Of a DNA stretch of 64,000 bases, positions 4,355 to 29,356 are shown piece after piece. Under the pieces are notes generated by a model. That model had not been told where the DNA came from, made no database searches, and was given only the letters and a program-made list of their open reading frames with translations. The stretch's first letter is position 1; each line of letters begins with the position of its first letter. The position numbers and the translations under genes were made by a program. The DNA comes from Actinotalea solisilvae (GTDB lineage: Bacteria; Actinomycetota; Actinomycetes; Actinomycetales; Cellulomonadaceae), in NCBI RefSeq assembly GCF_016464425.1, contig NZ_JADDKQ010000001.1:248001-312000 (forward strand), in the 5' to 3' direction.

Positions 4355-5124
4355 TGGCCCTCTTCACGCTCTGCTCCGCGTCAGGCGCCCCGGGCGTGAC
4401 GACGACAGCCCTCGCGCTCACCCGCACGTGGTCGGGTGCCATAGCGCACCGTGTTGCTCTGCTCGTGGACGCGGATCCGGTGGGTTCGGCGTTGATCCCC
4501 GCCTTCGTCGAGGGAGGAATCCCCACCGGGGGCGGCATCCTCGGCGTGGCCGCGGAGCGAGCCGCTACGGCTGACGACGTCCTTCGCCACGCGGTCGCCC
4601 TCGACGAGTCCGCCTCCTGCCTGATCCTGACGGGCGTGTCCGAGTCGGGGCAGGCCCGGCCACTCGGCGGGGTCTGGAGCACCTTGGTCGAGGTCGCCCA
4701 CGAGCTGGAGCGCTCAGGGCTGGACGTGATCGTCGACGCGGGGCGACTCGGCCACCGCTGGGAACCTCAGCCCCTGATCGACGCTGCGGACGTCGCCGTC
4801 CTCGTGTCGCGCCCGACCCTGCCCGCGGTGGCTGCGGCGCGAACCGCCCTTGCCGAGCTTCGCTCAAGACGGCTTGCGGGGGCGGCCACCGGCGTGCTGG
4901 TCGTCGGCCGGCCCGCGCCCTACTCAGCGGGCGAGGTGGCTCGTGCGCTGGACGCGGAGGCCCTGCCCGAACTGCCGGAGGACGTGTGGGCTTCACGCGC
5001 CCTCTCGCTTCTCGGCCCGGTGACGCCGCGACTGCGGCGCTCGGCACTGGTTCGCGCCGTCACTCAGACGGCCGCCGCCCTGGCGCGCACCGCCGCACCG
5101 GCGAGGCAGGTGACCGCGCCATGA
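4354..5124 (+). CDS. CpaE/MinD-like P-loop protein with altered Walker A
   Basis: 256 residues. The N-terminus has the MinD/ParA layout: FTLCSASGAPGVTTTALAL in place of the deviant Walker A KGGxGKT, then a VALLVDADPVG Walker A' region. The conserved P-loop lysines are absent (GAPGVTTT), which is typical of an actinobacterial CpaE-like group and suggests altered nucleotide handling. A later strand, LDVIVDAGRLG, matches the Walker B position. CpaE proteins localise Tad secretion complexes in the cell. The gene overlaps both neighbours (1 nt before, 4 nt after), so it belongs to the pilus operon. Confidence 0.75.
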   Translation: MALFTLCSASGAPGVTTTALALTRTWSGAIAHRVALLVDADPVGSALIPAFVEGGIPTGGGILGVAAERAATADDVLRHAVALDESASCLILTGVSESGQARPLGGVWSTLVEVAHELERSGLDVIVDAGRLGHRWEPQPLIDAADVAVLVSRPTLPAVAAARTALAELRSRRLAGAATGVLVVGRPAPYSAGEVARALDAEALPELPEDVWASRALSLLGPVTPRLRRSALVRAVTQTAAALARTAAPARQVTAP

Positions 5125-6557
5125 CCGACGACCTGCGCCTCGCTTCCCGGAACGGACAGCACGTGCCGGGCGCACTCCCCCGCTGGATTGACGGTGAGCG
5201 TGTCATTCCCGTCGCAGCATCGGTCGACCTGGCAACCGTCCGGGACATCCGCACGACCGTCGCCGAGGCGTTGGCGACGCGTCTCCAGGCAGACGCCGTG
5301 CCGGACCCCGCAGCGCGTCGGGAGCTCGCCCGCTCGCTCCTCGCATCCGAGCTCAGCGCACGCGCTCGGGCACGCGTGCAGTCCGGTCTGGATCCCTGGC
5401 CCGTGGAGACGGAGATGGCCGTGGCCGCCGCCGTGATAGCGGCGTTGTTCGGCCTTGGTCGCCTGCAACCGCTCGTCGACGACCCGCTCGTGGAGAACAT
5501 CGAGGTGGACGGGTGCGACTCGGTGTGGATCTCCTACGCCGACGGCCGCGACCGCAGGGCCGAGCCCGTCGCCGACTCCGACGCCGAGCTCATCGAGCTG
5601 CTGCAGCTGCTGGCGGCGCGGACCGGAGCCGACGAGAGGACGTTCACGTCCGCACACCCGTCGCTCCACCTCCGCCTGGAGGACGGCTCGCGACTCGCGG
5701 CGATGGCGTGGACGACGCCGAGGCCGCACGTCGTCATCCGTAGGCACCGCGTCAAGGACGTCGATCTTGACGACCTGGTCCGGCTGGGCACGCTCGATGC
5801 CGTCCTGGCCGGCTTTCTCAGGTCCGCTGTCCGCGCCGGCAAGAACGTCGTCGTCACCGGCCTGCAGAACGCGGGCAAGACCACTCTCGTCCGTGCGCTC
5901 GCCAACGAGTTCGGGCCGATGGAGCGCTTCGCGACCATCGAGAAGGAGTACGAACTCCATCTGCATGACCTTCCCGAGCGGCATCCGCGCGTCGTCGCCA
6001 TGGAGGCGCGGGAAGGCTCGACGGAGCGCGACGCCCAGGGCAGACGCTCCGGCGAGGTGACCCTCACGGACCTGGTCACCGACGCCCTTCGAATGAACCT
6101 GCGGCGGATCATCGTCGGCGAGGTCCGCGGCGCCGAGGTGCTGCCGATGCTCGAGGCCATGTCGACCGGGGACGGCTCGATGTGCACGCTGCACGCGCGC
6201 TCGGCCCAGCACGGCATCGACCGCATCGTCACGTTGTGCCTCTCGGCCGGGATCTCCATGACGGAGTCCTTCGCGTACCGCCTCCTCGCCGGCTCCGTGG
6301 ACCTGGTCGTGCACCTGAACCTGGTCGACGAGTCCGCGGAGGGAGGCCCCAAGCGGCGCTTCGTCACTGACGTCATCGCCATCGAAGGGCTCGGCGAGTC
6401 CTCGCGTCCGGCGACGACGACGGTCTTCGGCCCCGGACCGGACGGACGCGCGGTTCCCCTCCATCGGCCGGCGTTCCTGTCCGACCTCGTACGGGTCGGG
6501 TTCGACGAACATCTGCTCGACGACGACGGCTGGATCGACCGACGGGGTGCTCGATGA
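5121..6557 (+). CDS. tadA: Tad/CpaF-type secretion ATPase (GspE/VirB11 superfamily)
   Basis: 478 residues starting at the ATG that overlaps the previous stop (ATGA). The N-terminal domain ends in PLVENIEVDGCDSVWI. The motor has Walker A GLQNAGKTTLVRAL (Lys253), an Asp-box region FATIEKEYELHLHD, Walker B NLRRIIVGEVRGAEV and a His box GDGSMCTLHARSAQHG. This is the hexameric cytoplasmic ATPase that powers Tad pilus assembly. The length is normal for CpaF. It is followed with a 4-nt overlap by the TadB-like platform protein. A second, broken CpaF-type fragment lies at 35.7 kb. Confidence 0.9.
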   Translation: MTDDLRLASRNGQHVPGALPRWIDGERVIPVAASVDLATVRDIRTTVAEALATRLQADAVPDPAARRELARSLLASELSARARARVQSGLDPWPVETEMAVAAAVIAALFGLGRLQPLVDDPLVENIEVDGCDSVWISYADGRDRRAEPVADSDAELIELLQLLAARTGADERTFTSAHPSLHLRLEDGSRLAAMAWTTPRPHVVIRRHRVKDVDLDDLVRLGTLDAVLAGFLRSAVRAGKNVVVTGLQNAGKTTLVRALANEFGPMERFATIEKEYELHLHDLPERHPRVVAMEAREGSTERDAQGRRSGEVTLTDLVTDALRMNLRRIIVGEVRGAEVLPMLEAMSTGDGSMCTLHARSAQHGIDRIVTLCLSAGISMTESFAYRLLAGSVDLVVHLNLVDESAEGGPKRRFVTDVIAIEGLGESSRPATTTVFGPGPDGRAVPLHRPAFLSDLVRVGFDEHLLDDDGWIDRRGAR

Positions 6558-7435
6558 CGACCGCCTTGCTCGCCGCCGCTGCAGGCATCCTGGTCCCGGC
6601 CGGCGTCATCGTCTGCGTCGCCGGCATCCGCCGGGCGGAACCTCGACAGCGTTCCGACCGACGGGGCCGGCGCTCAACGTGGCGTTCCTACGTCGCCTCG
6701 CGGCGCGCACGACTTCTCGTTGCCCTCTCGGTCGGGATCCTCGTGTGGGCGCTGTTCTCGTGGCCCGTCGCTGGGCTCCTCGCCGCAGCAACCGTCATCG
6801 GACTGCCTGTGGCTCTCGGGGCAGGAGCCAAGGAACAGCGGCGGATCGATCGGATCGAGGCGATCGAGGAGTGGACCCGCCGACTGTCGGACGTCCTTGT
6901 CGCTGGAGCCGGTCTCGAGCAGGCGGTCACCACGTCGGTGGCAACCGCACCCGAGGCGATCCGACGCGAGGTCTCGGCGCTCAGCGCCCGGTTGGCGGCA
7001 CGCTGGCCGGCCGAACAGGCACTCCACGCCTTCGCGGACGACATGGATGATGCGTCGGCCGACCTCGTCGTCAGCGCTCTCATTCTCGCCGCTCGGCGCA
7101 GGGGCCCCGGGCTCTCCCGGGTGCTCGTCTCGGTCGCCGACTCCGTCGCCGAGGACGTCGGCGCTCGACGCCGCGTGGAGGCCGAGCGCGCGAAGCCTCG
7201 GGCGACCGCCCGGGCGGTCACGCTGATCACGCTCGCCGTCGTCGCGATCGGCTCGCTCAATACGGCATACGTCGCGCCGTACCGGAGTGCGCTCGGCCAG
7301 ATCGTTCTCGCAGCAGTCGCCATTGGCTTCGCCGCCTGCCTCGCCTGGATCCATCGCCTCACGATCTCCGCGCCGGAGCCACGGTTCCTCGGTGGCACGA
7401 GCAACGACGCCCTCGCCGCGAGGTGGTCGCGGTGA
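6554..7435 (+). CDS. tadB: TadB-like pilus platform protein (type II secretion F domain)
   Basis: 293 residues. Two membrane helices at the N-terminus (about 1-20 and 55-90), then a cytoplasmic F-domain from about 100 (EEWTRRLSDVLVAGAGLEQAV) to 215, then two C-terminal helices (about 220-275). This four-helix plan with a central GspF domain is that of TadB. It anchors the ATPase and the growing pilus in the membrane. Both ends overlap neighbours by 4 nt. Confidence 0.85.
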   Translation: MTTALLAAAAGILVPAGVIVCVAGIRRAEPRQRSDRRGRRSTWRSYVASRRARLLVALSVGILVWALFSWPVAGLLAAATVIGLPVALGAGAKEQRRIDRIEAIEEWTRRLSDVLVAGAGLEQAVTTSVATAPEAIRREVSALSARLAARWPAEQALHAFADDMDDASADLVVSALILAARRRGPGLSRVLVSVADSVAEDVGARRRVEAERAKPRATARAVTLITLAVVAIGSLNTAYVAPYRSALGQIVLAAVAIGFAACLAWIHRLTISAPEPRFLGGTSNDALAARWSR

Positions 7436-8319
7436 TCGGCTGGGAGGTCCTCCTGGCGGGGGCGCTCGTCGGTTCCGGCATCACCGTCGTCGCAGCCGGC
7501 CTGGTTCCGAGCCGTCCCCAACTGGCCGCCGCGCTCGCACGCCTGGATCCGCGGGTCTCGCGATCGGAGACACCGCCGGCCTCGGGAGCGCTCGCCGGGG
7601 TGCGCGCCCGCACGCTCCCGAGGCTCGTGGAAGGACTCGGCCTGCGCCGCTTCAGCGCCGAGCTGGCTGTGACGGAGCAGACCGTAGAAGCGCTCGCAGC
7701 CCGCAAGGTGGGCTACGCCCTGGTCGGGCTGGCGTTCCCGCCGATGATGGCCGCTCTGCTGGCCGTTGCCGGGGTTTCCGCTCCACCGGTGCTGCCCGTC
7801 GGTGTGGGCCTCGTCAGCGCAGGTGTGCTGTCGCTTGTGCCCGACGTCGAGCTCCGTCGTCGGGCCGCGACCGCGCGAGCGGCGATGCGGCGCGCGACCT
7901 GCGTCTACCTCGAGCTGGTCGCGCTGGAGCGGGCCGCCGACGCCGGCGCGACCGAAGCCCTCGAACGCGCCGCCACCGTGGGGCGATCTCGGGAGTTCCA
8001 GCGCATCCGGGAAGCCCTCCTGACCGCGGAGGTGACCGGTCGCCCGGCGTGGGACGGCCTCTACCGACTCGCGGACGACACCGGCGTCGTGGAGCTTGCG
8101 GACCTCGCCGACATCATGCGCCTGTCCGGCACGGACGGCGCCGCCGTCTACGGCACCCTGCGCGCCCGCGCGACCTCGCTCCGCACCCAGCTGCTCGCAA
8201 CGGCCTCGGCCGACGCGAACGCGGCGTCCGAGCACATGACGATCCCCGTCGCCCTCCTGGGCGTCGCCTTCATGGCCCTCATCGCCCTCCCCGCCTTCGC
8301 ACGCATCTTCACCGGATGA
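7432..8319 (+). CDS. tadC: TadC-like pilus platform protein
   Basis: 295 residues from the GTG at 7432, chosen because it forms a GTGA overlap with the tadB stop; another in-frame GTG lies nine bases earlier. Helices at about 1-20, 95-140 and 270-293 flank a cytoplasmic domain with the F-domain-like stretch ASEHMTIPVALLGVAFMALI at the C-terminal helix. TadC pairs with TadB to form the inner-membrane platform. The stop overlaps a possible start at 8316, but the next gene more likely begins at 8343. Confidence 0.85.
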   Translation: MIGWEVLLAGALVGSGITVVAAGLVPSRPQLAAALARLDPRVSRSETPPASGALAGVRARTLPRLVEGLGLRRFSAELAVTEQTVEALAARKVGYALVGLAFPPMMAALLAVAGVSAPPVLPVGVGLVSAGVLSLVPDVELRRRAATARAAMRRATCVYLELVALERAADAGATEALERAATVGRSREFQRIREALLTAEVTGRPAWDGLYRLADDTGVVELADLADIMRLSGTDGAAVYGTLRARATSLRTQLLATASADANAASEHMTIPVALLGVAFMALIALPAFARIFTG

Positions 8320-8342
8320 CCGACCCCGCAAGGAGCCTCGAC

Positions 8343-8549
8343 ATGCTGCACACGATCGCCACGCTCACCGTCCTGCAGGGCTACGTCGCGACCGCCCGAC
8401 GAGCCGTCCGACGCCGGCTGGGAGAGAACGACGTCGGCGCATCCACGCTCGAGCTCGTGATCATCGTGCTCGGGCTCATCGCCGTCGCGACCCTCCTCGT
8501 CGTCGCCATCACCGCCGCAGTCCAGCGCCGCGTCGACCAGATCACCTGA
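8343..8549 (+). CDS. Flp-type small pilin candidate
   Basis: 68 residues from the ATG at 8343, which has AAGGAG eight bases upstream; an in-frame ATG at 8316 overlaps the tadC stop but has no comparable site. The protein is a short basic leader, then GENDVGASTLELVIIVLGLI and a single hydrophobic helix. Gly-Ala-Ser before a Glu five residues into the hydrophobic part is the pattern of class III signal peptides cleaved by prepilin peptidases. Position after tadC and before the TadE genes fits the major Flp pilin. It is abundant and structural if the guess is right. Confidence 0.7.
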   Translation: MLHTIATLTVLQGYVATARRAVRRRLGENDVGASTLELVIIVLGLIAVATLLVVAITAAVQRRVDQIT

Positions 8550-8556
8550 GGCAGCC

Positions 8557-9000
8557 GTGTCCCGCACTTCCCGTCTCGGCCGACGGGCCACCCGCCCGGC
8601 GGTCTCGTCCATGCGGGCACGCGATGACGGGTCGGTCACCATCGAGCTGTCCATCCTGTTCCCGGCACTGCTCCTTCTCGTGACGGCTCTCGTCCAGTAC
8701 GGCCTGTGGTTCCACGCCCGTTCGGTCGCACTCGCGGCAGCCCAGCAGGGGGTCGTGGCCGCAGCCGCCTACCAGGCGCCGCCCGGTGCTGGGGTCGATG
8801 GCGCGACGGCCTTCGTCGTCGCCCACGGCTCGCAGACGCTCTTCGACGCAGCGGCATCCCAAGGTGTGCCGACCCCCGGGATGGTCAGGGTCGAGGTGAG
8901 CGGCCGGTCTGTCTCGCTCCTACCCGGGACGCCCGGTCCTGCCGTGGTCCAATCAGCCACCGCTCCGGTCGAGCGGTTCACCGTGGCAGGTGGACCATGA
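8557..9000 (+). CDS. TadE-like pseudopilin
   Basis: 147 residues from a GTG start. Residues about 25-60 read DDGSVTIELSILFPALLLLV followed by QYGLWFHARSVALAAAQQG, the TadE signature: class III leader, conserved Glu at +5 and an N-terminal helix that continues into an amphipathic region. The rest is a small extracytoplasmic domain. TadE-like proteins are minor pilins of the Tad system. The stop overlaps the next start by 4 nt. Confidence 0.85.
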   Translation: MSRTSRLGRRATRPAVSSMRARDDGSVTIELSILFPALLLLVTALVQYGLWFHARSVALAAAQQGVVAAAAYQAPPGAGVDGATAFVVAHGSQTLFDAAASQGVPTPGMVRVEVSGRSVSLLPGTPGPAVVQSATAPVERFTVAGGP

Positions 9001-9431
9001 CTCCGATCAACGGTCGCGATCCCGAGCGCGGCAGCGTGACTCTCGAACTCGCGGTCCTGACCCCGGCGCTGATCATGCTGCTGGCCGCGCTCGTCCTGGC
9101 GGGGCGATTGCAGGTGGCGGCGTCGGCGGTCGAGCACGCGACTGCCGCTGCGGCTCGCGCGGCGTCGATCGAACGCACGGTCGACGGGGCGCGAGCGGCG
9201 GCTCAGCAGACGGTCGACCGGGAGACGGCCACAAGTGATCTGCGGTGCAGCTCGACCGTCGCGCAGGTCGACCCCTCAGCGCTGGCTGCGCCGCTCGGGA
9301 CGGCCGCGAGCGTGACCGTCCGGGCGAGCTGCACGGTGACCATGGCGGACCTGGCGGTGCCCGGCCTCCCAGGAAGCCGAACGCTCACCGCGGAGTCGAC
9401 CTCCGCCGTCGACAGGTACCGCACCCGATGA
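8997..9431 (+). CDS. second TadE-like pseudopilin
   Basis: 144 residues from the ATG at 8997 (ATGA overlap). Begins with a short leader ending in ERGSVTLELAVLTPALIMLL, again a Gly-Ser and +5 Glu followed by a membrane helix. A paired DLRCSSTV/ASCTVT sequence gives two cysteines that could form a disulfide outside the cell. It pairs with the preceding TadE gene and overlaps the next by 4 nt. TadF is an alternative name for such a second minor pilin. Confidence 0.8.
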   Translation: MTPINGRDPERGSVTLELAVLTPALIMLLAALVLAGRLQVAASAVEHATAAAARAASIERTVDGARAAAQQTVDRETATSDLRCSSTVAQVDPSALAAPLGTAASVTVRASCTVTMADLAVPGLPGSRTLTAESTSAVDRYRTR

Positions 9432-14641: not shown

Positions 14642-15043
14642 ATGCCGATGATCGCCGCAAGTCCTGATGTGAGTGGCCGCGCGGAGCTCGCGCCCGCGGG
14701 GGCGTTGTTCCGAGGACTGGGCGACCCGACTCGTCTGGCGCTGGTGCGCCGTCTGGCGACGGGCGAAGCGCGGGTCGTGGACCTGTGCACCGAGCTGGGG
14801 CTGAGCCAGTCCACCGTGTCCTCGCACCTGGCCTGCCTGCGCGAGTGCGGGTTGGTCGACTACCGCGCGCAGGGACGCGCGTCGGTGTACCACCTGAGCC
14901 GCCCGGAGCTCATGGACCTTCTCGCGGTGGCCCAAGACCTGCTGGCCGCCACTGGCAACGCTGTGGCCTTGTGCCCCACCTACGCGGACCCCACCACTTC
15001 CGACCCAAGCCGGGTCGCCACGACGAAGGAGAGCGCACGATGA
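14642..15043 (+). CDS. cadC: ArsR/SmtB family metal-sensing repressor, CadC/CmtR-like
   Basis: 133 residues. Winged-helix core: LFRGLGDPTRLALVRRLATG, then DLCTELGLSQSTVSSHLACL (recognition helix) and LVDYRAQGRASVYHLS (wing). Cysteines lie at CTELG (in helix alpha-4), HLACLREC and CPTY near the C-terminus, consistent with a CmtR/CadC type Cd/Pb sensor. In this family metal binding releases DNA. It is translationally coupled to the P-type ATPase (4-nt overlap). In-frame GTG at 14669 is an alternative start. Confidence 0.85.
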   Translation: MPMIAASPDVSGRAELAPAGALFRGLGDPTRLALVRRLATGEARVVDLCTELGLSQSTVSSHLACLRECGLVDYRAQGRASVYHLSRPELMDLLAVAQDLLAATGNAVALCPTYADPTTSDPSRVATTKESAR

Positions 15044-17007
15044 GCGACGCCTGCGGCTGCAGCGACGACGAGACCACCCCAGCCGGCGACGAAGCCGGGG
15101 AGCACGAGGCCGAGCGGCTCTGGGAGGTCAGCGAGCTTCGGTTCGCCGCCGTTGCCGGCGTGCTGCTCCTGGTGGGCCTGGTCGCGGCGTCGATGGATCA
15201 GCCCGCCGTCGCGACGGTGCTGAACTCGGTGGCTCTGCTGGTCGGTGCGTGGACGTTCGTCCCCAGCACGGTGCGGCGACTGGCCAGGGGCAAGATCGGC
15301 GTCGGGACGCTGATGACGATCGCAGCGATCGGCGCGGTGCTTCTGGGTGAGGTCGCCGAGGCGGCTGCACTGGCGTTCTTGTTCTCCATCAGCGAGGGCC
15401 TGGAGGAGTACTCCCTCGCCCGAACCCGTCGCGGCCTGCGGGCGCTGCTGGATCTCGTGCCCGCTACAGCGACGGTGCTGCGCGACGGTGCCGAGACCAC
15501 GGTGGCTCCCGGTGAGCTGGGCATCGGGGACCTGATGGTCGTCAAGCCCGGGGAGCGGGTCGCCACCGACGGGGTCATCCGCACCGGTCGCACGGCCCTG
15601 GACGTCTCGGCCATCACCGGTGAGTCGGTGCCCGTGGAGGCCGGGCCCGGGGGGACCGTCTACGCGGGGTCGATCAACGGATCCGGCGTCCTCGAGGTGG
15701 AGGTGACCACCACCGCGCAGGACAACTCGCTGGCGCGGATCGTGCGGATCGTCGAGGCCGAGCAGTCCCGCAAAGGCGAAGCCCAGCGCCTGGCGGACCG
15801 CATCGCCAAGCCGCTGGTGCCCGGTGTGATGATCGCCGCGGCGCTCATCGCTGTCGCCGGCAGCCTCCTGGGTGACGCGGGCACGTGGATCGAGCGAGCC
15901 CTCGTCGTGCTCGTCGCGGCGTCACCGTGCGCCCTGGCGATCTCCATCCCGGTGTCCGTGGTCGCCGCCGTCGGTGCCGCCTCCAAGCAGGGTGTGCTCA
16001 TCAAGGGCGGTGCGGCGGTTGAGGCCCTCGGTGCCATCCGCGGGGTCGCCCTCGACAAGACCGGGACATTGACCCGCAACGCCCCCTCCGTCGTCGCCGT
16101 CGTCGCGGCGCCCGGCCACACCCAGGAGCGCGTCCTGCAGGTCGCGGCCGCCCTCGAAGCACGCAGCGAGCACCCCCTGGCGCGGGCAATCTTGGCCGCC
16201 GTTTCCGCGGTCAGCCCGGCCAGCGACGTGGAGGCCGTCCCCGGTGCGGGCCTGACCGGGACGTTCGAGGGTCGGCCCGTCCGGCTCGGGCGACCCGGCT
16301 GGGTCCAGGCCGGGTCACTGGCCGGTGAGGTGGAGCGGATGCAGCAGGCGGGGGCGACCGCCGTCCTGATCGAAGAGAACGGCTCGCTGCTCGGTGCGGT
16401 CGCCGTGCGCGACGAGCTTCGGCCCGAGGCAGCGCAGGTCGTAGCCCAGCTGCGCCGCGACGGCTACCACGTCGCCATGCTCACCGGTGACAACAGCCTC
16501 ACCGCGACCGCCCTGGCCCTCGAGGTCGGCATCGACGAGGTCCACGCAGACCTGCGCCCCGAGGACAAGGCCGCACTGGTCGCCCAGCTGCGCACCCAGC
16601 GCCGCACCGCAATGGTCGGCGACGGCGTCAACGACGCCCCCGCCCTGGCGACCGCCGACCTCGGCATCGCGATGGGCGCGATGGGCACCGACGTCGCGAT
16701 CGAGACCGCCGACGTCGCGCTCATGGGTGAGGACCTGCGTCACCTGCCCCAGGCGTTCGCCCACGCTCGCAGGGCACGGCGCATCATGCTGCAGAACGTC
16801 GGGCTGTCCCTGGCGATCATCATCGTGCTCATGCCCCTGGCGCTCTTCGGTGTTCTCGGGCTGGCCGCCGTCGTGCTCGTGCACGAGATCGCTGAGGTCC
16901 TCGTCATCGCCAACGGCGTCCGCGCCGGACGCGCCCAGCCTCTGCCGACGGACGTGACCGAAGCCATCACGGCAAGGCCCGAGCAGCCCGCGCTGGCCGC
17001 CCAGTGA
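15040..17007 (+). CDS. P1B-type heavy-metal translocating ATPase with an SPC motif
   Basis: 655 residues from the ATG at 15040 with AAGGAG upstream. Eight-helix P1B plan: actuator TGES, membrane metal site SPC (Ser295-Pro-Cys297), phosphorylation DKTGT (Asp339), HP motif SEHPLARA, and GDGVNDAP. The last helices hold VHEIAEVLVIANG. The first ten residues hold CGC but there is no full metal-binding domain. Cd/Zn exporters (P1B-2) carry CPC; SPC with a His-Glu in the last helices is the mark of P1B-4 pumps for Co, Ni, Fe or Zn. So the usual cadA name fits by context but the substrate may differ. Confidence 0.9.
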   Translation: MSDACGCSDDETTPAGDEAGEHEAERLWEVSELRFAAVAGVLLLVGLVAASMDQPAVATVLNSVALLVGAWTFVPSTVRRLARGKIGVGTLMTIAAIGAVLLGEVAEAAALAFLFSISEGLEEYSLARTRRGLRALLDLVPATATVLRDGAETTVAPGELGIGDLMVVKPGERVATDGVIRTGRTALDVSAITGESVPVEAGPGGTVYAGSINGSGVLEVEVTTTAQDNSLARIVRIVEAEQSRKGEAQRLADRIAKPLVPGVMIAAALIAVAGSLLGDAGTWIERALVVLVAASPCALAISIPVSVVAAVGAASKQGVLIKGGAAVEALGAIRGVALDKTGTLTRNAPSVVAVVAAPGHTQERVLQVAAALEARSEHPLARAILAAVSAVSPASDVEAVPGAGLTGTFEGRPVRLGRPGWVQAGSLAGEVERMQQAGATAVLIEENGSLLGAVAVRDELRPEAAQVVAQLRRDGYHVAMLTGDNSLTATALALEVGIDEVHADLRPEDKAALVAQLRTQRRTAMVGDGVNDAPALATADLGIAMGAMGTDVAIETADVALMGEDLRHLPQAFAHARRARRIMLQNVGLSLAIIIVLMPLALFGVLGLAAVVLVHEIAEVLVIANGVRAGRAQPLPTDVTEAITARPEQPALAAQ

Positions 17008-17525
17008 TGGCGATCACCACGGACGAGAAACAACTCCGCGCTGCAGGCACGTCGGCGCGGCGACGCCTGACCGCCGGCCTGGTCGCGGCCCTGGTCACGG
17101 GCATCGACCTGAGCGCCAAGGCCTGGGCGGTGGCCCAGCTGCAGGACGAGGTCGTCGGCCTTGGCGTGGTGGATCTGCGGCTGGCGTACAACTCCGGGGT
17201 GGCGTTCTCGGTGGGCGCTGGGGCGCCGGGGTGGCTGGTACTGACCGCGACGGCGCTCGTCACCCTCGGAGTCGGTGTCCTGGCGTGGCGGACCGCCGCT
17301 AGCGGCCCGGGCTCGCGGCTCATCGCGTTCGCCCTGGTCTTAGGGGGCGCGATCGCCAACCTTGCCGACCGGGCCGTCGACGGTGTCGTCACCGACTACC
17401 TGCACACAGGTTGGTTCCCCACCTTCAACCTCGCCGACATCGCCATCGTGACCGGAGCCGGCCTTCTCGTTCTCCTCGCAGCTACGGGCCGCGGCGCGGC
17501 CGGTACAGAGCCCGAGCGGGAGTGA
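17004..17525 (+). CDS. lspA: lipoprotein signal peptidase (signal peptidase II)
   Basis: 173 residues with four membrane helices. Family motifs are present: YNSGVAFSVG (third conserved block), GGAIANLADRAVDG and FPTFNLADIAIVTGAG, with the two catalytic aspartates in NLAD R and FNLAD. The GTG at 17004 overlaps the ATPase stop (GTGA); an ATG follows at 17007. Cleaves the signal peptide of diacylglyceryl prolipoproteins. This is not the housekeeping setting (next to rluD) but a copy carried with metal-resistance genes; the next gene encodes a lipoprotein-like thioredoxin that may be its substrate. Confidence 0.9.
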   Translation: MMAITTDEKQLRAAGTSARRRLTAGLVAALVTGIDLSAKAWAVAQLQDEVVGLGVVDLRLAYNSGVAFSVGAGAPGWLVLTATALVTLGVGVLAWRTAASGPGSRLIAFALVLGGAIANLADRAVDGVVTDYLHTGWFPTFNLADIAIVTGAGLLVLLAATGRGAAGTEPERE

Positions 17526-17526
17526 C

Positions 17527-18180
17527 ATGACGACCGCGACCCCGATCGGCATCGACGGGAGCACCAGCAGCCAAGCGCCGCCCCGAGCTGAGCGCCACGG
17601 CACTTTCGGCGTCCTGCTGGCGACGGTCCTCCTCGGAGCGCTTCTCGCTGGTTGCACGCCAGCGGTCACCGGGGGCTGGACCGAAGAAGGCACCGAGGCC
17701 GGGTACGTCTCCGGCGACGGCACCGTCACCACCTGGGACGCCGAGCAGCGCGGCGAGCCGGTCCGACTTGTCGGCAAGGACTTCGCCGGCGCCGACGTGG
17801 ACACGGCCGCCTGGCTCGGTGACGTCGCAGTGCTCAACACCTGGTACGCAGCGTGCCCGCCCTGTCGCGCCGAGGCACCGGATCTCGTCGCCGCAGCACA
17901 GGACTACGGCCAGGACGGGGTGCACTTCCTTGGCATCAACGGCACCGACGACGCCGGAGCCGCCCAACCCTTCGAACGCACCTTCGCCATCCCCTACCCC
18001 AGCATCGCCGACCGAGACGGCACCGCGATCGCTGCCCTCCAAGGCCGCGTGCCGATCCAGGCCGTGCCCACGACCGTGATCCTGGACCGCCAGGGTCGCG
18101 TGATGGCACGCATCATCGGCCGCGCCGACCCCACCACGCTGCGCGAGCTCATCGACGCAGCCCTCGCCGAGACGTCGTGA
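17527..18180 (+). CDS. TlpA/ResA-like membrane-anchored thioredoxin
   Basis: 217 residues. An N-terminal hydrophobic stretch ends in LLGALLAGCTP, a lipobox giving Cys45, so the protein is probably a lipoprotein. The thioredoxin domain follows from about 80, with active site WYAACPPCRAEAPDL (Cys110-Cys113) and the cis-Pro region QAVPTTVILD. TlpA/ResA proteins reduce disulfides outside the membrane, with electrons from a CcdA protein, and the next gene is ccdA. Starts one base after the lspA stop. Confidence 0.9.
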   Translation: MTTATPIGIDGSTSSQAPPRAERHGTFGVLLATVLLGALLAGCTPAVTGGWTEEGTEAGYVSGDGTVTTWDAEQRGEPVRLVGKDFAGADVDTAAWLGDVAVLNTWYAACPPCRAEAPDLVAAAQDYGQDGVHFLGINGTDDAGAAQPFERTFAIPYPSIADRDGTAIAALQGRVPIQAVPTTVILDRQGRVMARIIGRADPTTLRELIDAALAETS

Positions 18181-18947
18181 GCGGCGGCTTCTGGCAGGAC
18201 CTCGCCCAGGCGTTCCAGGAGACGGCCTTCGCCGGCCCGATGCTCCTGGCGATACCCGTCGCCATCCTCGCCGGCGTGGTGTCCTTCGCCTCTCCCTGCG
18301 TCGTCCCTTTGCTACCGGGATACTTCGCCTTCGTCACCGGTATGAGCGGAGCCGCCGCCGGGCAACGATCGAGAGGGCTCCTCCTCACCGGAGTAGGCCT
18401 CTTCGTCCTCGGCTTCTCCGTCGTGTTCGTCGTGCTCGGTGTTGCAGTCGGATCGCTGGGGGAAGCCATTCGACCCTGGCAAGGCGTCATCACCCCCGTC
18501 ATGGGAGGTGTCGTCGTCCTCATGGGCCTGGCCTTCATCGGCTGGATTCCCGGACTCCAGCAGGAGCGAAGACTGCGCCTGGCGCCTCGTCAGGGCCTGG
18601 CCGGCGCCCCGCTCCTCGGCGCGGTCTTCGCTCTCGGCTGGGCGCCCTGCATCGGACCGACGCTCGCGACCGTCCTGTCGCTGTCGCTCAACGAGGCCAG
18701 CGCCTCGCGCGGAGCTCTCCTCGCAGCCGCCTACGCCGCCGGCCTCGGGATCCCCTTCCTGCTGATCGCACTCGGCGCGCACCACTCCACAGCCGCCGTG
18801 ACCTTCCTGCGGAGTCACCGCCTCGCCATCATGCGAATTGGCGGTGCGATGCTCATCCTCATCGGCGCCGCCCTGATGACAGGGCTGTGGAACACCTGGA
18901 CCCAGAGCCTCCAGGCGCTCATCGGAGGATTCGTGACCGTCGTCTAG
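18177..18947 (+). CDS. ccdA: CcdA-type cytochrome c biogenesis/thiol transporter
   Basis: 256 residues from a GTG overlapping the previous stop. Six membrane helices with the two conserved cysteines of the family: FASPCVVPLLPGY in helix 1 and GWAPCIGPTLATV in helix 4. CcdA passes reducing power across the membrane to TlpA-like thioredoxins, here the upstream gene product. Probably maintains thiols needed for metal resistance outside the cytoplasm; that use is inference. Last gene of the cadC-to-ccdA unit. Confidence 0.9.
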   Translation: MSGGFWQDLAQAFQETAFAGPMLLAIPVAILAGVVSFASPCVVPLLPGYFAFVTGMSGAAAGQRSRGLLLTGVGLFVLGFSVVFVVLGVAVGSLGEAIRPWQGVITPVMGGVVVLMGLAFIGWIPGLQQERRLRLAPRQGLAGAPLLGAVFALGWAPCIGPTLATVLSLSLNEASASRGALLAAAYAAGLGIPFLLIALGAHHSTAAVTFLRSHRLAIMRIGGAMLILIGAALMTGLWNTWTQSLQALIGGFVTVV

Positions 18948-22022: not shown

Positions 22023-23281
22023 TGCGCCGCGGTGCAGCGCCGACGACGGCGCCGCCGCACGGTCGTCTCCGCCTGGCCGAATCCCTGCACCTGCCCGCCC
22101 ACCGGGCGTCATCGGTCACACTGGCGGGCGCCTACCCGTTCCTTGCCGGCCCACCCTGCACTACGGGGCCGCTCGTAGGTGTCGACGCGATGACCGGCGG
22201 GCCGTTCTGCTTCGACCCCTGGGCGCTGTACACCGCGGGCGAGCTCACCAACCCGAACACCGTGCTCGCCGGCGTCATCGGTCAGGGCAAGTCCGCACTG
22301 GCGAAGTCACTGGCCGTGCGCGCGATCGCCACCGGGCGCCGCGTCTACGTCCCTGGGGACCCCAAGGGCGAGTGGAGCTTTGTCGCCGAGGCCGTCGGCG
22401 GCGCCGTCGTCCGCCTCGGACCTGGCCTGCCGACCCGCCTGAACCCGCTCGACGCCCACGGCATGGGGACCGCCGAGGCACACGGACCCCGGCTCCGGAT
22501 CCTCGGTGCGCTCGGCGCGCTGACGCTGCGCCGCGAGCTCCGCCCGTCCGAGCACGAGGCCATGGAAGCATCCCTCGCGGCCGTGGAATCGCACCCGGAG
22601 CCAACGCTGAGCGAGATCGTCGACGCCCTCGCGGTCCACACGACCCTCGACGGCGAGGGCCGCGACCTCGAATACGCGCTACGCCGCCTGGTGCGTGGTG
22701 ACCTCGCCGGCATGTTCGACGGGACGTCCACGCAGCGGCTCGACCGGGCGGCACCCATGACGGTGCTGGACCTGTCCGGGATCGGCTCGGACGACGACGC
22801 CCTCGCGGTGGCGATGGCGTGCGCCTCAGCCTGGCTGGAGCACGCCCTGGTCGCGGGAAGTGCGAAGCGCTGGGTCATCTACGACGAGGCATGGCGGCTC
22901 ATGCGGTCCGTTCCACTCGTCCGGCGGATGCAGGCGCAGTGGAAGCTCTCGCGTGCCTACGGCATCGCGAACCTGCTCGTGCTGCACCGGCTGTCCGATC
23001 TGGACGCCGTCGGACGCGCGGGCAGTGAGGCACGGGCGCTGGCCGAAGGCCTGCTCGCGGACTGCTCCACCCGCATCGTGTACCGCCAGGAGAGCGACCA
23101 GCTGGAGCCGACGCGGAGGGCGTTGGGCCTCTCGACCGCCGAACGCGACATCCTCACCACGCTCCCTCGGGGCACCGGCCTCTGGAAGATGCCCCGCCGC
23201 AGCCACGTCGTGCACCACCACCTCACGGCCGCGGAGCTCGCGCTGTTCGACACTGACGCTGCCATGCGGGACGAGCCATGA
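22022..23281 (+). CDS. VirB4/TraC-like conjugation ATPase
   Basis: 419 residues from the ATG at 22022, one base inside the previous stop (a GTG three bases earlier also fits). Walker A is AGVIGQGKSALAKS (Lys90) and Walker B is RWVIYDEAWRLMRS with the VirB4 Glu/Trp pair; sensor region LVLHRLSDLDAVGRAGSEA follows. The N-terminal membrane/VirB4 domain is lacking and is supplied by the upstream SCO6880-like protein. Drives assembly or substrate movement of the transfer apparatus at the membrane. Confidence 0.9.
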   Translation: MRRGAAPTTAPPHGRLRLAESLHLPAHRASSVTLAGAYPFLAGPPCTTGPLVGVDAMTGGPFCFDPWALYTAGELTNPNTVLAGVIGQGKSALAKSLAVRAIATGRRVYVPGDPKGEWSFVAEAVGGAVVRLGPGLPTRLNPLDAHGMGTAEAHGPRLRILGALGALTLRRELRPSEHEAMEASLAAVESHPEPTLSEIVDALAVHTTLDGEGRDLEYALRRLVRGDLAGMFDGTSTQRLDRAAPMTVLDLSGIGSDDDALAVAMACASAWLEHALVAGSAKRWVIYDEAWRLMRSVPLVRRMQAQWKLSRAYGIANLLVLHRLSDLDAVGRAGSEARALAEGLLADCSTRIVYRQESDQLEPTRRALGLSTAERDILTTLPRGTGLWKMPRRSHVVHHHLTAAELALFDTDAAMRDEP

Positions 23282-24387
23282 TTCGCCCTGACGCGGCCGC
23301 CGAGCTCGCCGAGCGAGCACTGCTGGGCTCCTTGCTGCTGGATCCGGAGGGACTCCGCGCCGTTCGTCCTTGGCTGCGGACGGCGGACTTCACCGACCCC
23401 CGGCACGGCCAGCTGTACGCCCTCCTGTGCGAGCGGCACGTCGCGGGCGAGGCCACCGACCCGATGGCGATTTCAAGTGCCTTGGTGGGGCGGCTGGCCG
23501 GCCCCTCCCCCGGCGTCATGGTGCACGACTGCCTGGAGGCCGTGCCCGCGGTCGCGAGCCCGCAGACCTACGCGCGCATCGTCGCGGAGGCCGGGCTCCG
23601 TCGCGAGATCGCAGGGCTCGGTGTTCTGCTGCGCGCCGGCGCCCTGCAGTCCTGGCTGTCTCGCGAATCGGTCCCGATGGCGTCGACGTGCGCCCTGGTC
23701 GACGCCGCGCTCGTGTCCGTGGGCCGCAGATGGGATGCAGCCACCGGCGCACCGCGCTCGCGTCAGTCGACGAGTCCGATCCAGCTGAACGCAGCGTTGC
23801 GCAACCCCAACCTCCGCGTGGGCGCCGACAAGCTGCTGCAGGCGCACCCGGACCGGGACGTCGCCGCTGAGCACCTGCATGAAGCGCTCTTCGTCGGAAG
23901 CCTGATCACCCACCCGAGGGAAGTCCCCGCCGTCGGTCGCCATCTGCGCCCTCAACGCTTCTCGTCAGGGCCGTGGCGCACGGTGTACGGCGCGACCCTC
24001 GAGCTCGCCGAACTGGGCCAGCCCGTCGACCTCGTGACGGTGGCACACGCGACGGCGCGGCTGAGTCACCACGGCCAAGCGACGCCCTCCCTCAGGGAAC
24101 TCCTCGAGGTGACCGATGCCGCCCGTCACACCGCGCCACGAGCGGCTGAGCAGGTCGTGTGGGTGGACCAACTCCGGCGGATCGCTGACAACGGTGCCGA
24201 CCAGCTTCGGAAGGGCGCGGCCAACCCCGGCCTCAACCTCACCGACCTCGTCGACACCGGGCGACTCATCACGACGGCCCTACGCGACGGCGCCGGCATG
24301 CTGCCCGAGCACGTGGGCGCCGAAACCGGGCTCGTTGCCCGGGAACGCGCCCCACAGGCCACGCGGCACGGACCGGCCGCCGGATGA
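23278..24387 (+). CDS. protein with two DnaB-helicase N-terminal-like domains and no motor
   Basis: 369 residues. Residues about 7-130 (ERALLGSLLLDPEGL... DFTDPRHGQLYALL) and about 200-320 (HEALFVGSLITHPREV... RFSSGPWRTVYGATLELAELG) each match the helical N-terminal domain of DnaB, which contacts primase and loaders. No Walker motif follows either copy. So this is a DnaB-N tandem without the RecA-like ATPase, in the middle of a conjugation operon. It might bind the host primase or act on the transferred strand; inference only. ATGA overlaps at both ends. Confidence 0.8.
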   Translation: MIRPDAAAELAERALLGSLLLDPEGLRAVRPWLRTADFTDPRHGQLYALLCERHVAGEATDPMAISSALVGRLAGPSPGVMVHDCLEAVPAVASPQTYARIVAEAGLRREIAGLGVLLRAGALQSWLSRESVPMASTCALVDAALVSVGRRWDAATGAPRSRQSTSPIQLNAALRNPNLRVGADKLLQAHPDRDVAAEHLHEALFVGSLITHPREVPAVGRHLRPQRFSSGPWRTVYGATLELAELGQPVDLVTVAHATARLSHHGQATPSLRELLEVTDAARHTAPRAAEQVVWVDQLRRIADNGADQLRKGAANPGLNLTDLVDTGRLITTALRDGAGMLPEHVGAETGLVARERAPQATRHGPAAG

Positions 24388-27448: not shown

Positions 27449-27996
27449 CGCTAGAGATCGGAGACGGTCGCGGGGCATCGGCGGAGCGCAACGCTCAAGG
27501 CACTGCACCCTCACCTCGGGAGGCGAGGGCTGACCGCCACGGCTCGGCTGAAGGCCTACTCGCGCGCGAACGTCGACGCGAGAGCCGACGGACTTCGTCG
27601 AGTGTCATAGATCTCGCCTGGTGTGGGGCGCCTGAGGGAGGCGACACGCACCAGCCCTTGCCCTCGGTGCCGCTCTCGGTGGCGGGACGGTGCCGGCTGA
27701 CGACGGCTCCATATTGGCGCCGGGTTGGCGACACGTGACGACGAGGCCAACGGCGTCCACGCTCCTCCGCAGCACTCCCCCGACGCACCAGCGACGAAGG
27801 AGGGTTGCGGCTCTGCGGTTGAGATGGCCCATGGCACGGCCCGAGCGGTGACCGTGCATCTCCAAACCTCCCGCGATCGGCGACGTGTGCGATCCCGATC
27901 CGGCCGCATCTCTATGGCGCTCCCAAACATCCCGGACGAGACTGTCAAGGAGTCGTCAGGTCCTGCCGATGGTTGCGAAGAGGGGAGGTGACGATC
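27449..27996. other. 548-base intergenic region
   Basis: No frame in this stretch has protein-like composition or a usable start. A GC-rich hairpin near its left end may end the transfer operon. The right end must hold the promoter of the next two-gene unit, and AGGGGAGG lies just before that start. Composition is less GC-rich than the flanking genes. Confidence 0.5.
27508..27529 (+). terminator. candidate hairpin after the transfer operon
   Basis: Inverted repeat CCCTC-A-CCTC / GAGG-C-GAGGG with a two-base centre, 60 bases after the stop of the wall hydrolase gene. No T run follows, so termination efficiency is uncertain. Confidence 0.35.
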
Positions 27997-28839
27997 ATGA
28001 CCATCACGCACGCAACGTCGGTCCAGGGCGAGCCGGGTGTTGAGGTACGCATCGCTCAGCGCCGCCGACTCCCCGTCAGCCAGTACATGTCGATCCTCGG
28101 CCAGGTCAACCAGAGCCTCCTCGAGCTCGACCTCCGCTCCACAAGCCGCGGTACGCCGCGCCTCACCTGGGGCATAGCCGACCTCGGACGAAGCGGAGCC
28201 GAGCTCGTCGCGCAGCTGGCTCCCGTACACATCCCGCCTCGGCGCGACGCCACTACCCTCTCAGCTCCGCCACGCGATCTCGTCGCCGGCATCCGCGCGC
28301 TGGGTACGGCACCGGAGATCCCCGAGCAGTTCAGCGCCCAGACGGTGGAGAGGATCCTCTCTATCGGACGCGGTACCGATGACGGCACCGTCGACCACAT
28401 CACCGTCACCGCCCTCGGCGACGTCGATCATGTCGACGCAGTCGTCACACACGACACCATCGAGAGCGCGAAGACCGCAGTTCGGGTCGCCAGGAGCGCA
28501 TGGGGCAGCGTGACGGGAGAACTGACGGTGCTCGATAACCGAGGGCACCGGAACGTCCGAGCTCAGGTCTACGACGCCAAGCGGCGACAGGCCGTGGTGC
28601 TCAGGGCCGAGCTCAAGATGGCGGGTGAACTCCGGGACGCCTGGGGCAAGCGTGTGGCGGCCACCGGAACGCTGACACGCAATGCCGCCGGCCAGCCCTT
28701 GAAGCTCGACCTCGCGCAGCTGGTTCTCGTCGAGACGCAGGAGGAGCGCATCTCTCCTTGGTCGATTCTCGGCGTCGACGCCGGCGCGACCGGTCATCTC
28801 ACGACCGAGGAATTCATGGAGATGATTCGTGGCCGGTAG
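27997..28839 (+). CDS. uncharacterised protein coupled to a PIN nuclease
   Basis: 280 residues from the ATG at 27997 with AGGGGAGG nine bases upstream. No membrane segment. The N-terminal part is mixed (SQYMSILGQVNQSLLELDL), and residues about 165-250 alternate short strands and turns (VTGELTVLDNRGHRNVRAQV, VAATGTLTRNAAGQPLKLDL) in a way that suggests a small beta-barrel. I know no family for it. The next gene, a PIN-domain protein, starts inside its last codons, so the two should be made in fixed ratio; an antitoxin or partner role is possible, but the protein is long for an antitoxin. Confidence 0.7.
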   Translation: MTITHATSVQGEPGVEVRIAQRRRLPVSQYMSILGQVNQSLLELDLRSTSRGTPRLTWGIADLGRSGAELVAQLAPVHIPPRRDATTLSAPPRDLVAGIRALGTAPEIPEQFSAQTVERILSIGRGTDDGTVDHITVTALGDVDHVDAVVTHDTIESAKTAVRVARSAWGSVTGELTVLDNRGHRNVRAQVYDAKRRQAVVLRAELKMAGELRDAWGKRVAATGTLTRNAAGQPLKLDLAQLVLVETQEERISPWSILGVDAGATGHLTTEEFMEMIRGR

Positions 28840-29356
28840 CGCGCCAGCACCCTTCGTCTACATGGATACCTGCCTCTTCTTCAGCGTGATCAAGAAGGAG
28901 AAGGGGTTGTGGCAGGTGCCGCTCCAGGTTTTGCTGGCAGCAGCCAGAGGAGATGTCCGACTGACCGCATCCGCGCTCTTACTCGCGGAGCTCTCAAGCT
29001 TCAAGGGTGACGTTGCCCGGAGCGAGCAAGACCGGATCATCGAGCAGTACCTCGTCCAGGGTGACATCGAGTGGGTGGAATTGGACCTCTTCACCGCCCA
29101 AGAAGCACGGAGGCTCTGCGTCGAGTATCGCCTACGCGGCGCGGACGCGGTCCACCTCGCGAGCGCAGTGAGGCGCGGCGCCGACTATTTCATGTCGAAC
29201 GACAAGCGCTTCCCCTACGGGCAGTCGATCCAGAACACCAAGGTGCGCCATCCCGAAGTGGTGTGGCCCAACACCCTTGAGGACGCTCAAGTCGAGCTCG
29301 AAGCCGGGCTCGAGCTCGACGTTTCGATCGAAGGCGGAGAGCCGGACCTCCGGTGA
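28829..29356 (+). CDS. PIN-domain ribonuclease-like protein
   Basis: 175 residues from a GTG overlapping the previous gene by 11 nt. The four PIN acidic residues are in order: Asp13 (YMDTC), Glu54 (LLAELSS), Asp106 (GADAVHLASA) and Asp125 (MSNDKRF), so a metal-dependent nuclease active site is complete. The C-terminal 35 residues are acidic. PIN proteins are often toxins of toxin-antitoxin pairs and cleave RNA. Here the partner is an unusual 280-residue protein, not a VapB-like antitoxin. Confidence 0.85.
   Translation: MAGSAPAPFVYMDTCLFFSVIKKEKGLWQVPLQVLLAAARGDVRLTASALLLAELSSFKGDVARSEQDRIIEQYLVQGDIEWVELDLFTAQEARRLCVEYRLRGADAVHLASAVRRGADYFMSNDKRFPYGQSIQNTKVRHPEVVWPNTLEDAQVELEAGLELDVSIEGGEPDLR

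Follow-up and report, generated by a model that had tools for sequence, protein, structure and literature searches.

A conserved module, probably of the PIN toxin–antitoxin kind, with an undescribed type of partner protein in Actinotalea solisilvae

A two-gene unit in the genome of Actinotalea solisilvae, in which an open reading frame for a 280-residue protein is followed by a gene for a PIN-domain nuclease, raises the question of whether such a pair is a toxin–antitoxin module, an anti-phage system or neither. The unit lies in a stretch of 64,000 nucleotides of contig NZ_JADDKQ010000001.1 (hereafter the window), and its features are collected in Table 1. As the original prediction held, the two reading frames overlap by 11 nt at 28829-28839, and the residues Asp13, Glu54, Asp106 and Asp125 of the PIN protein are all intact. 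The overlap makes translational coupling of the two genes likely. A longer partner gene starting at TTG 27973, present in the list of open reading frames, is less likely than the ATG start adopted here.

Table 1. Features of the two-gene unit, in window coordinates
Feature	Position	Strand	Basis
Ribosome-binding sequence of the partner gene, GGGGAGGTGA	27982..27991	+	Sequence read, 5' of the ATG
Partner gene, 280 aa; putative antitoxin of an undescribed family	27997..28839	+	ORF from ATG 27997 to TAG 28839
N-terminal part of the partner	27997..28480	+	P109 invariant and W58 nearly so in the 13-member alignment A3
OB-like C-terminal domain of the partner, covering roughly residues 170-250	28504..28746	+	Profiles compared with those of four OB families and with controls
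Probable ribosome-binding sequence of the PIN gene, GGAG, lying within the partner gene	28818..28821	+	Sequence read
Overlap of partner and PIN genes, 11 nt	28829..28839	+	ORF coordinates
PIN-domain nuclease gene, 175 aa	28829..29356	+	GTG 28829 to TGA 29356; PF01850; D13/E54/D106/D125

The assignment of the second gene rests on the Pfam PIN model PF01850, which matches its product at 37.4 bits (cut-off 23.6, E 4e-9) and has no other match detected in the genome. Among the aligned PINs of the family described below, D13, E54 and D106 are conserved in 11 of 11 and D125 in 9 of 11, and the protein thus has the PIN domain and acidic catalytic residues of a VapBC toxin. A single-sequence search of related genomes with this protein gave matches in 6 of 99, its own genome (G000) included; the best match elsewhere (G050) is VapC-like and has a Phd-like antitoxin upstream, as judged by eye. 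In plasmids and viral contigs the same type of search, which reaches close relatives, gave no match.

The partner protein was far harder to place. It had no match at E 1 in Pfam, NCBIfam or PADLOC, its two matches in PHROGs had E values of 0.15 and 0.84, and a single-sequence comparison with solved structures returned nothing convincing (E 0.54), while the best match of the family profile to a solved structure had an E of 0.17. A Pfam scan at E 0.5 of the 13 members of alignment A3, which leaves out four further members (G985, G1077, G1069 and G234), matched no antitoxin family; six other families were matched by one member each, mutually unrelated and with a best E of 0.0037. A profile search of the partner had been named beforehand as a check, and it gave no match to a curated family and so none to a known non-defence family.

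Relatives of the partner were likewise rare. In a single-sequence search of the 99 related genomes only G000 matched, the 98 others giving none. Plasmids, phages, genome contigs and viral contigs yielded no relative, whether searched with the single sequence or with other family members, nor was one found in viral contigs with a close sub-alignment of the family or a back-translated motif, and these searches, being mostly single-sequence, are weak for so divergent a family and reach close relatives only. A phage or plasmid origin of the unit is unsupported by these records within that reach.

Homologues were found by phylum-wide searches. With the window partner, 36 of 396 genomes matched at E 0.1, of which G000, G426 (E 3.4e-5 over residues 32-279) and G172 (E 0.01 over residues 157-246) were kept; when those matches of this search for which a locus was available were re-scored with a three-member profile, only G426 and G172 matched at E 10 besides the window. 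Iterated profile searches then matched 7 of 396 genomes at E 0.01, two of which (G294 and G391) were dropped as partial matches with E 6.5e-4 and 0.0068, and 4 of 249, 5 of 197 and 5 of 296 genomes at E 0.001, counts that overlap because the searches share genomes and include members already found. Altogether, the partner-only searches gave 16 loci in 15 genomes, or 17 loci with that of G234, which came from a PIN search. A profile of the 15 others matched residues 19-278 of the left-out window partner with a score of 84.4 bits (E 1.6e-24 for 4000 sequences); all other members passed the same leave-one-out comparison with a lowest score of 83.6 bits, the scores of G1077 and G1069 being inflated because these two are close to each other. 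The proteins are about 239-280 aa long in A3 and about 239-296 aa overall, with some starts set by alignment, and the 13 members share few invariant or nearly invariant residues (W58, P109, G170, G174, G224 and G259). In one genome, G734, the module is present twice, as diverged copies on separate contigs (L065 and L066).

Because only the partner served as query, nothing in these searches favoured loci with a PIN gene, and yet one stands directly behind the partner at 15 of the 16 loci, the window included; the locus of G234 was left out of this count. A lack of co-occurrence of the two genes in other genomes was one of the refuting outcomes that the original prediction had named in advance, and 14 of 15 other loci are paired. 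The pairing is beyond chance, and it recurs in distantly related bacteria covered by the phylum-wide searches. In the 14 relatives the start codon of the PIN gene lies at most 14 nt inside the partner gene and at most 2 nt past its end, stop codon counted, so that in these and in the window (11 nt) the first gene overlaps or abuts the second, as an antitoxin gene of VapBC does its toxin gene. Moreover, the distances among partners and among PINs are correlated (Mantel r 0.86 for 13 pairs, with 0 of 20000 permutations as high; r 0.83 after one of each of two close pairs was dropped), a correlation to which shared organism descent contributes. Four PINs are absent from the PIN alignment A4, namely the two broken ones (G172 and G1069) and two that were found later (G985 and G1077).

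The incomplete loci bear on which of the two proteins might be the harmful one. Thirteen of the 15 PINs in the partner-search loci are intact and two are broken, that of G172 being split across two frames and that of G1069 breaking off, in both cases with the partner open and a draft error possible. In G426 (L037 1495-2316) a partner homologue occurs with no PIN gene behind it, which might be an orphan antitoxin or have another function. A broken or absent PIN gene beside an open partner is as expected if the PIN protein is the harmful half, an argument that draws on three loci (G172, G1069 and G426) with possible draft errors among them.

The reverse approach, in which PINs were searched and their neighbours inspected, relates the module to VapBC. 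A profile of 11 PINs matched in 77 of 227 genomes, and the best 30 loci were inspected: three carry the new partner, namely those of G000, G172 and the newly found G234 (ranks 1, 4 and 3), 24 have a small VapB-like reading frame upstream, picked by eye, one (L106) has an AbrB-type reading frame, also by eye, and two lie at a contig edge. In a Pfam scan, 11 of the 24 VapB-like frames matched Phd/YefM, nine MazE/AbrB and two RHH_1, these being counts per family that are not exclusive. Among related PIN genes, as represented by these best 30 loci, the new partner takes the slot of VapB, but its length is roughly threefold that of the VapB-like proteins, which have 69-93 aa. The rank-2 match (G168) has an AbrB partner, and the PIN branch therefore does not split cleanly by partner type.

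Could the unit then be an ordinary VapBC whose antitoxin is just too diverged to be recognised? The operon layout is the same, the PINs are related by profile, and VapB stands beside most of the other related PINs inspected. However, none of the 13 A3 members matches a Pfam antitoxin family at E 0.5, and the length of about 239-280 aa in A3 and the OB-like C-terminus described below also speak against it, which makes this explanation very improbable. The small upstream Phd, AbrB/MazE, RHH or HTH antitoxin of VapBC was found neither in the window partner (Pfam, E 1) nor in the 13 members (E 0.5); because this antitoxin domain is lacking, the unit stands outside VapBC in the strict sense, yet it probably works like a VapBC module. 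Compared with VapBC, the PIN gene is likewise second and close behind or overlapping its partner, whereas the partner of about 239-296 aa is OB-like at its C-terminus and lacks any known antitoxin domain.

An OB fold was tested because the sequence pattern of the C-terminal region suggested one, and the OB templates were picked after that idea had arisen; the other comparisons were with IspH, the PIN alignment and the N-terminus of the partner. Template sets of 24, 12, 11 and 6 sequences were gathered from relatives via Pfam models, three of them matching PF01336 and presumably representing AspS, DnaE and LysS, names that we assigned from sequence and length. In hhalign the 13-member C-terminal domain scored 36.3 against exonuclease VII (77 aligned columns), 27.7 against AspS (58), 21.5 against DnaE (72) and 20.2 against LysS (34), and true OB–OB pairs score 14.8-42.9. 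None of 60 column shuffles scored as high in any of the four comparisons, the largest reaching 18.7; reversed, N-terminal and PIN controls gave 9.7-19.2, and two IspH slices gave 15.6 and 16.2. By profile similarity above controls, the C-terminal domain therefore appears to belong to the OB superfamily; exonuclease VII and AspS provide strong evidence for this, and DnaE and LysS, which lie barely above the controls, provide marginal evidence. The exonuclease VII score persisted when the window protein was removed from the profile (38.2), but the window partner by itself gave no OB signal against exonuclease VII (11.8; 12.1 together with G426). The domain thus aligns with the PF13742/PF01336 OB domains of the four template families and differs from them in that the window sequence alone gives no signal and the rest of the partner is without a match. 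A single-sequence AlphaFold model, made with no alignment, had a pLDDT of 33 for the full-length partner and, for residues 163-255, a pLDDT of 68.5 and a pTM of 0.40 with one long helix; this helix is at odds with the OB reading and was given little weight because of the missing alignment and the pTM. The earlier statement that the partner has no known antitoxin fold thus stands as regards libraries, and is refined in that the C-terminal domain is OB-like by family profile.

Generally, OB folds often bind RNA or single-stranded DNA, and an OB domain together with a nuclease is a common make-up of RNA-processing enzymes. The pair might on this ground be a host RNA-processing or decay unit with no role in conflict, in which the OB protein would be the RNA-binding subunit. 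Such a function is improbable in view of the sparse occurrence of the family, which matched the few genomes of the partly shared iterated sets (7 of 396, with two of the seven dropped, 4 of 249, 5 of 197 and 5 of 296) and none of the 98 related genomes searched besides G000, and in view of the existence of broken PIN copies.

In the literature, the closest precedent for a PIN nuclease paired with something other than a classic antitoxin is DS-5 of DefensePredictor, for which the passages on this system in PMC13092281 describe a PIN protein and a DUF5830/AcrIF4-like protein, both needed, and state that deleting the gene of the latter abolished defence but did not lead to unrestrained toxicity. 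DS-5 is likewise a two-gene system, but its partner has DUF5830 and an AcrIF4-like domain (PMC13092281), and DUF5830 was found in neither the window partner nor any of the 13 members (Pfam scans, E 0.5 for the members). Makarova et al. 2009 also predicted antitoxins from conserved PIN neighbourhoods, and the partners listed in the relevant part of that study (COG2442/DUF433, COG2880, COG1753 and truncated MerR) are 3-helical-bundle, AbrB-related, RHH and MerR proteins, with none of OB type among them (PMC2701414). In addition, the NetFlax study includes PIN/VapC-like toxins among the nuclease toxins validated with diverse antitoxins, PanA included; this variety of antitoxins resembles the present case, but PanA, the PrlF-like and SpnP types, RHH_6 and SynP1 are not described as OB-type in its account of them (PMC10440598). 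An OB-fold partner of a PIN protein was not found in the open-licence PubMed Central literature, within the portions of text retrieved from it, where several papers, such as PMC3710099 and PMC7824862, contain both terms.

The DS-5 precedent and the OB-like domain both favour an effector made of two proteins, probably directed against phages. Its OB protein would recognise RNA or single-stranded DNA that is foreign or unusual and bring in the PIN nuclease; both proteins would be required and neither would be an antitoxin. Two N6_N4_Mtase, two Mrr_cat and four PADLOC mad2 genes, among the matches listed for 109 neighbouring reading frames of other members (taken by a crude ORF picker; the first 25 of 123 Pfam and the first 25 of 135 PADLOC families), point the same way. 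However, the matches listed for the same reading frames also include some transposases and are rich in housekeeping genes, and without a background rate these counts decide nothing on a defence-island context. Moreover, the pair has no PADLOC match, and open partners beside broken or absent PIN genes are better explained by an antitoxin, so that such an effector is a possible but doubtful explanation. Upstream of the module in G411 (L040 27-740), a protein resembling the TIR-like Thoeris effectors was noted by eye.

The genomic setting is that of a conjugative element. Upstream of the unit lie genes for a protein with a DnaB N-terminal domain, a coupling protein of the TraG type and a cell-wall hydrolase of the SLT/CHAP type (with CHAP scoring below its cut-off), and downstream, in convergent orientation, lies a TrwC-type relaxase with a helicase. 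The unit had been placed between a T4SS operon and a relaxase; the coupling-protein and SLT/CHAP genes on one side and TrwC on the other bear this out, and further transfer genes are represented only by a weak AAA_10 match below its cut-off. The upstream region that had been ascribed to the unit is real as a gap of 548 nt, which holds three inverted repeats with arms of 10-11 nt that are 119-395 nt apart, but searching it for promoters with a simple sigma-70 scan gave a negative result. The GC content is 67.0% in the partner gene and 62.5% in the PIN gene against 72.1% in the window, and this lower GC, together with the lack of a match to the single partner sequence in 98 related genomes, fits acquired cargo.

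Elsewhere in the window, the gene at 23278-24387 directly precedes the coupling-protein gene, and the DnaB helicase N-terminal domain is the only one in its product to pass the cut-off. Upstream of the transfer genes, at 4986-9428, genes with T2SSE, TadE and, marginally under its cut-off, T2SSF domains make up a pilus or secretion cluster of the Tad type. Between these two groups, genes for a P-type ATPase, signal peptidase II, a redoxin and a DsbD-like membrane protein occupy 14785-18947 and might be metal-resistance cargo.

The unit is a real, conserved module, probably of the PIN toxin–antitoxin kind, whose partner is of an undescribed type. Given the position, the overlap and the incomplete loci, the simplest reading makes the partner the antitoxin and the PIN protein a ribonuclease toxin, and gene order, overlap, co-divergence and the presence of VapB in the same slot beside most other related PINs all support a toxin–antitoxin reading. 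The reading preferred here, with a probability of roughly 0.55, is that of a VapBC-like toxin–antitoxin module which a conjugative element carries as cargo of lower GC and whose antitoxin represents a new family of OB type. Counting against the antitoxin reading, no DNA-binding domain was recognised in the partner, and no plasmid or phage record carrying it was found, which is unusual for an addiction module, within searches that are weak for so divergent a family. The unit had been proposed as a new toxin–antitoxin or anti-phage pair; the first half of that proposal is the one favoured by these lines of evidence, and its anti-phage half found no direct support, the pair lacking a PADLOC match and its neighbourhoods being mixed.

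In such a VapBC-like module, the second gene would encode a PIN-fold, metal-dependent ribonuclease acting as the toxin, and the first, overlapping gene would encode a long antitoxin made up of an N-terminal part and the C-terminal OB-like domain. The partner would be made first, with PIN translation coupled to it via the overlap, and it may then bind the PIN protein and block the acidic active site or keep RNA off. The OB domain might serve regulation by contacting the operon or its transcript, or it might hold substrate RNA, and as cargo of a conjugative element the module may stabilise the element or protect the host.

A recurrent OB-like partner that has no match in Pfam, NCBIfam or PADLOC would be a further type of antitoxin or sensor, and the family profile built here would allow the module to be annotated in other genomes. 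A speculative and rather unlikely extension is that the OB partner is a nucleic-acid sensor which holds the PIN protein inactive until RNA or single-stranded DNA of a phage or an incoming element is bound, so that the antidote would also be the trigger. If this were true, the pair would represent a class of PIN defence distinct from both VapBC and DS-5 and carried by a conjugative element.
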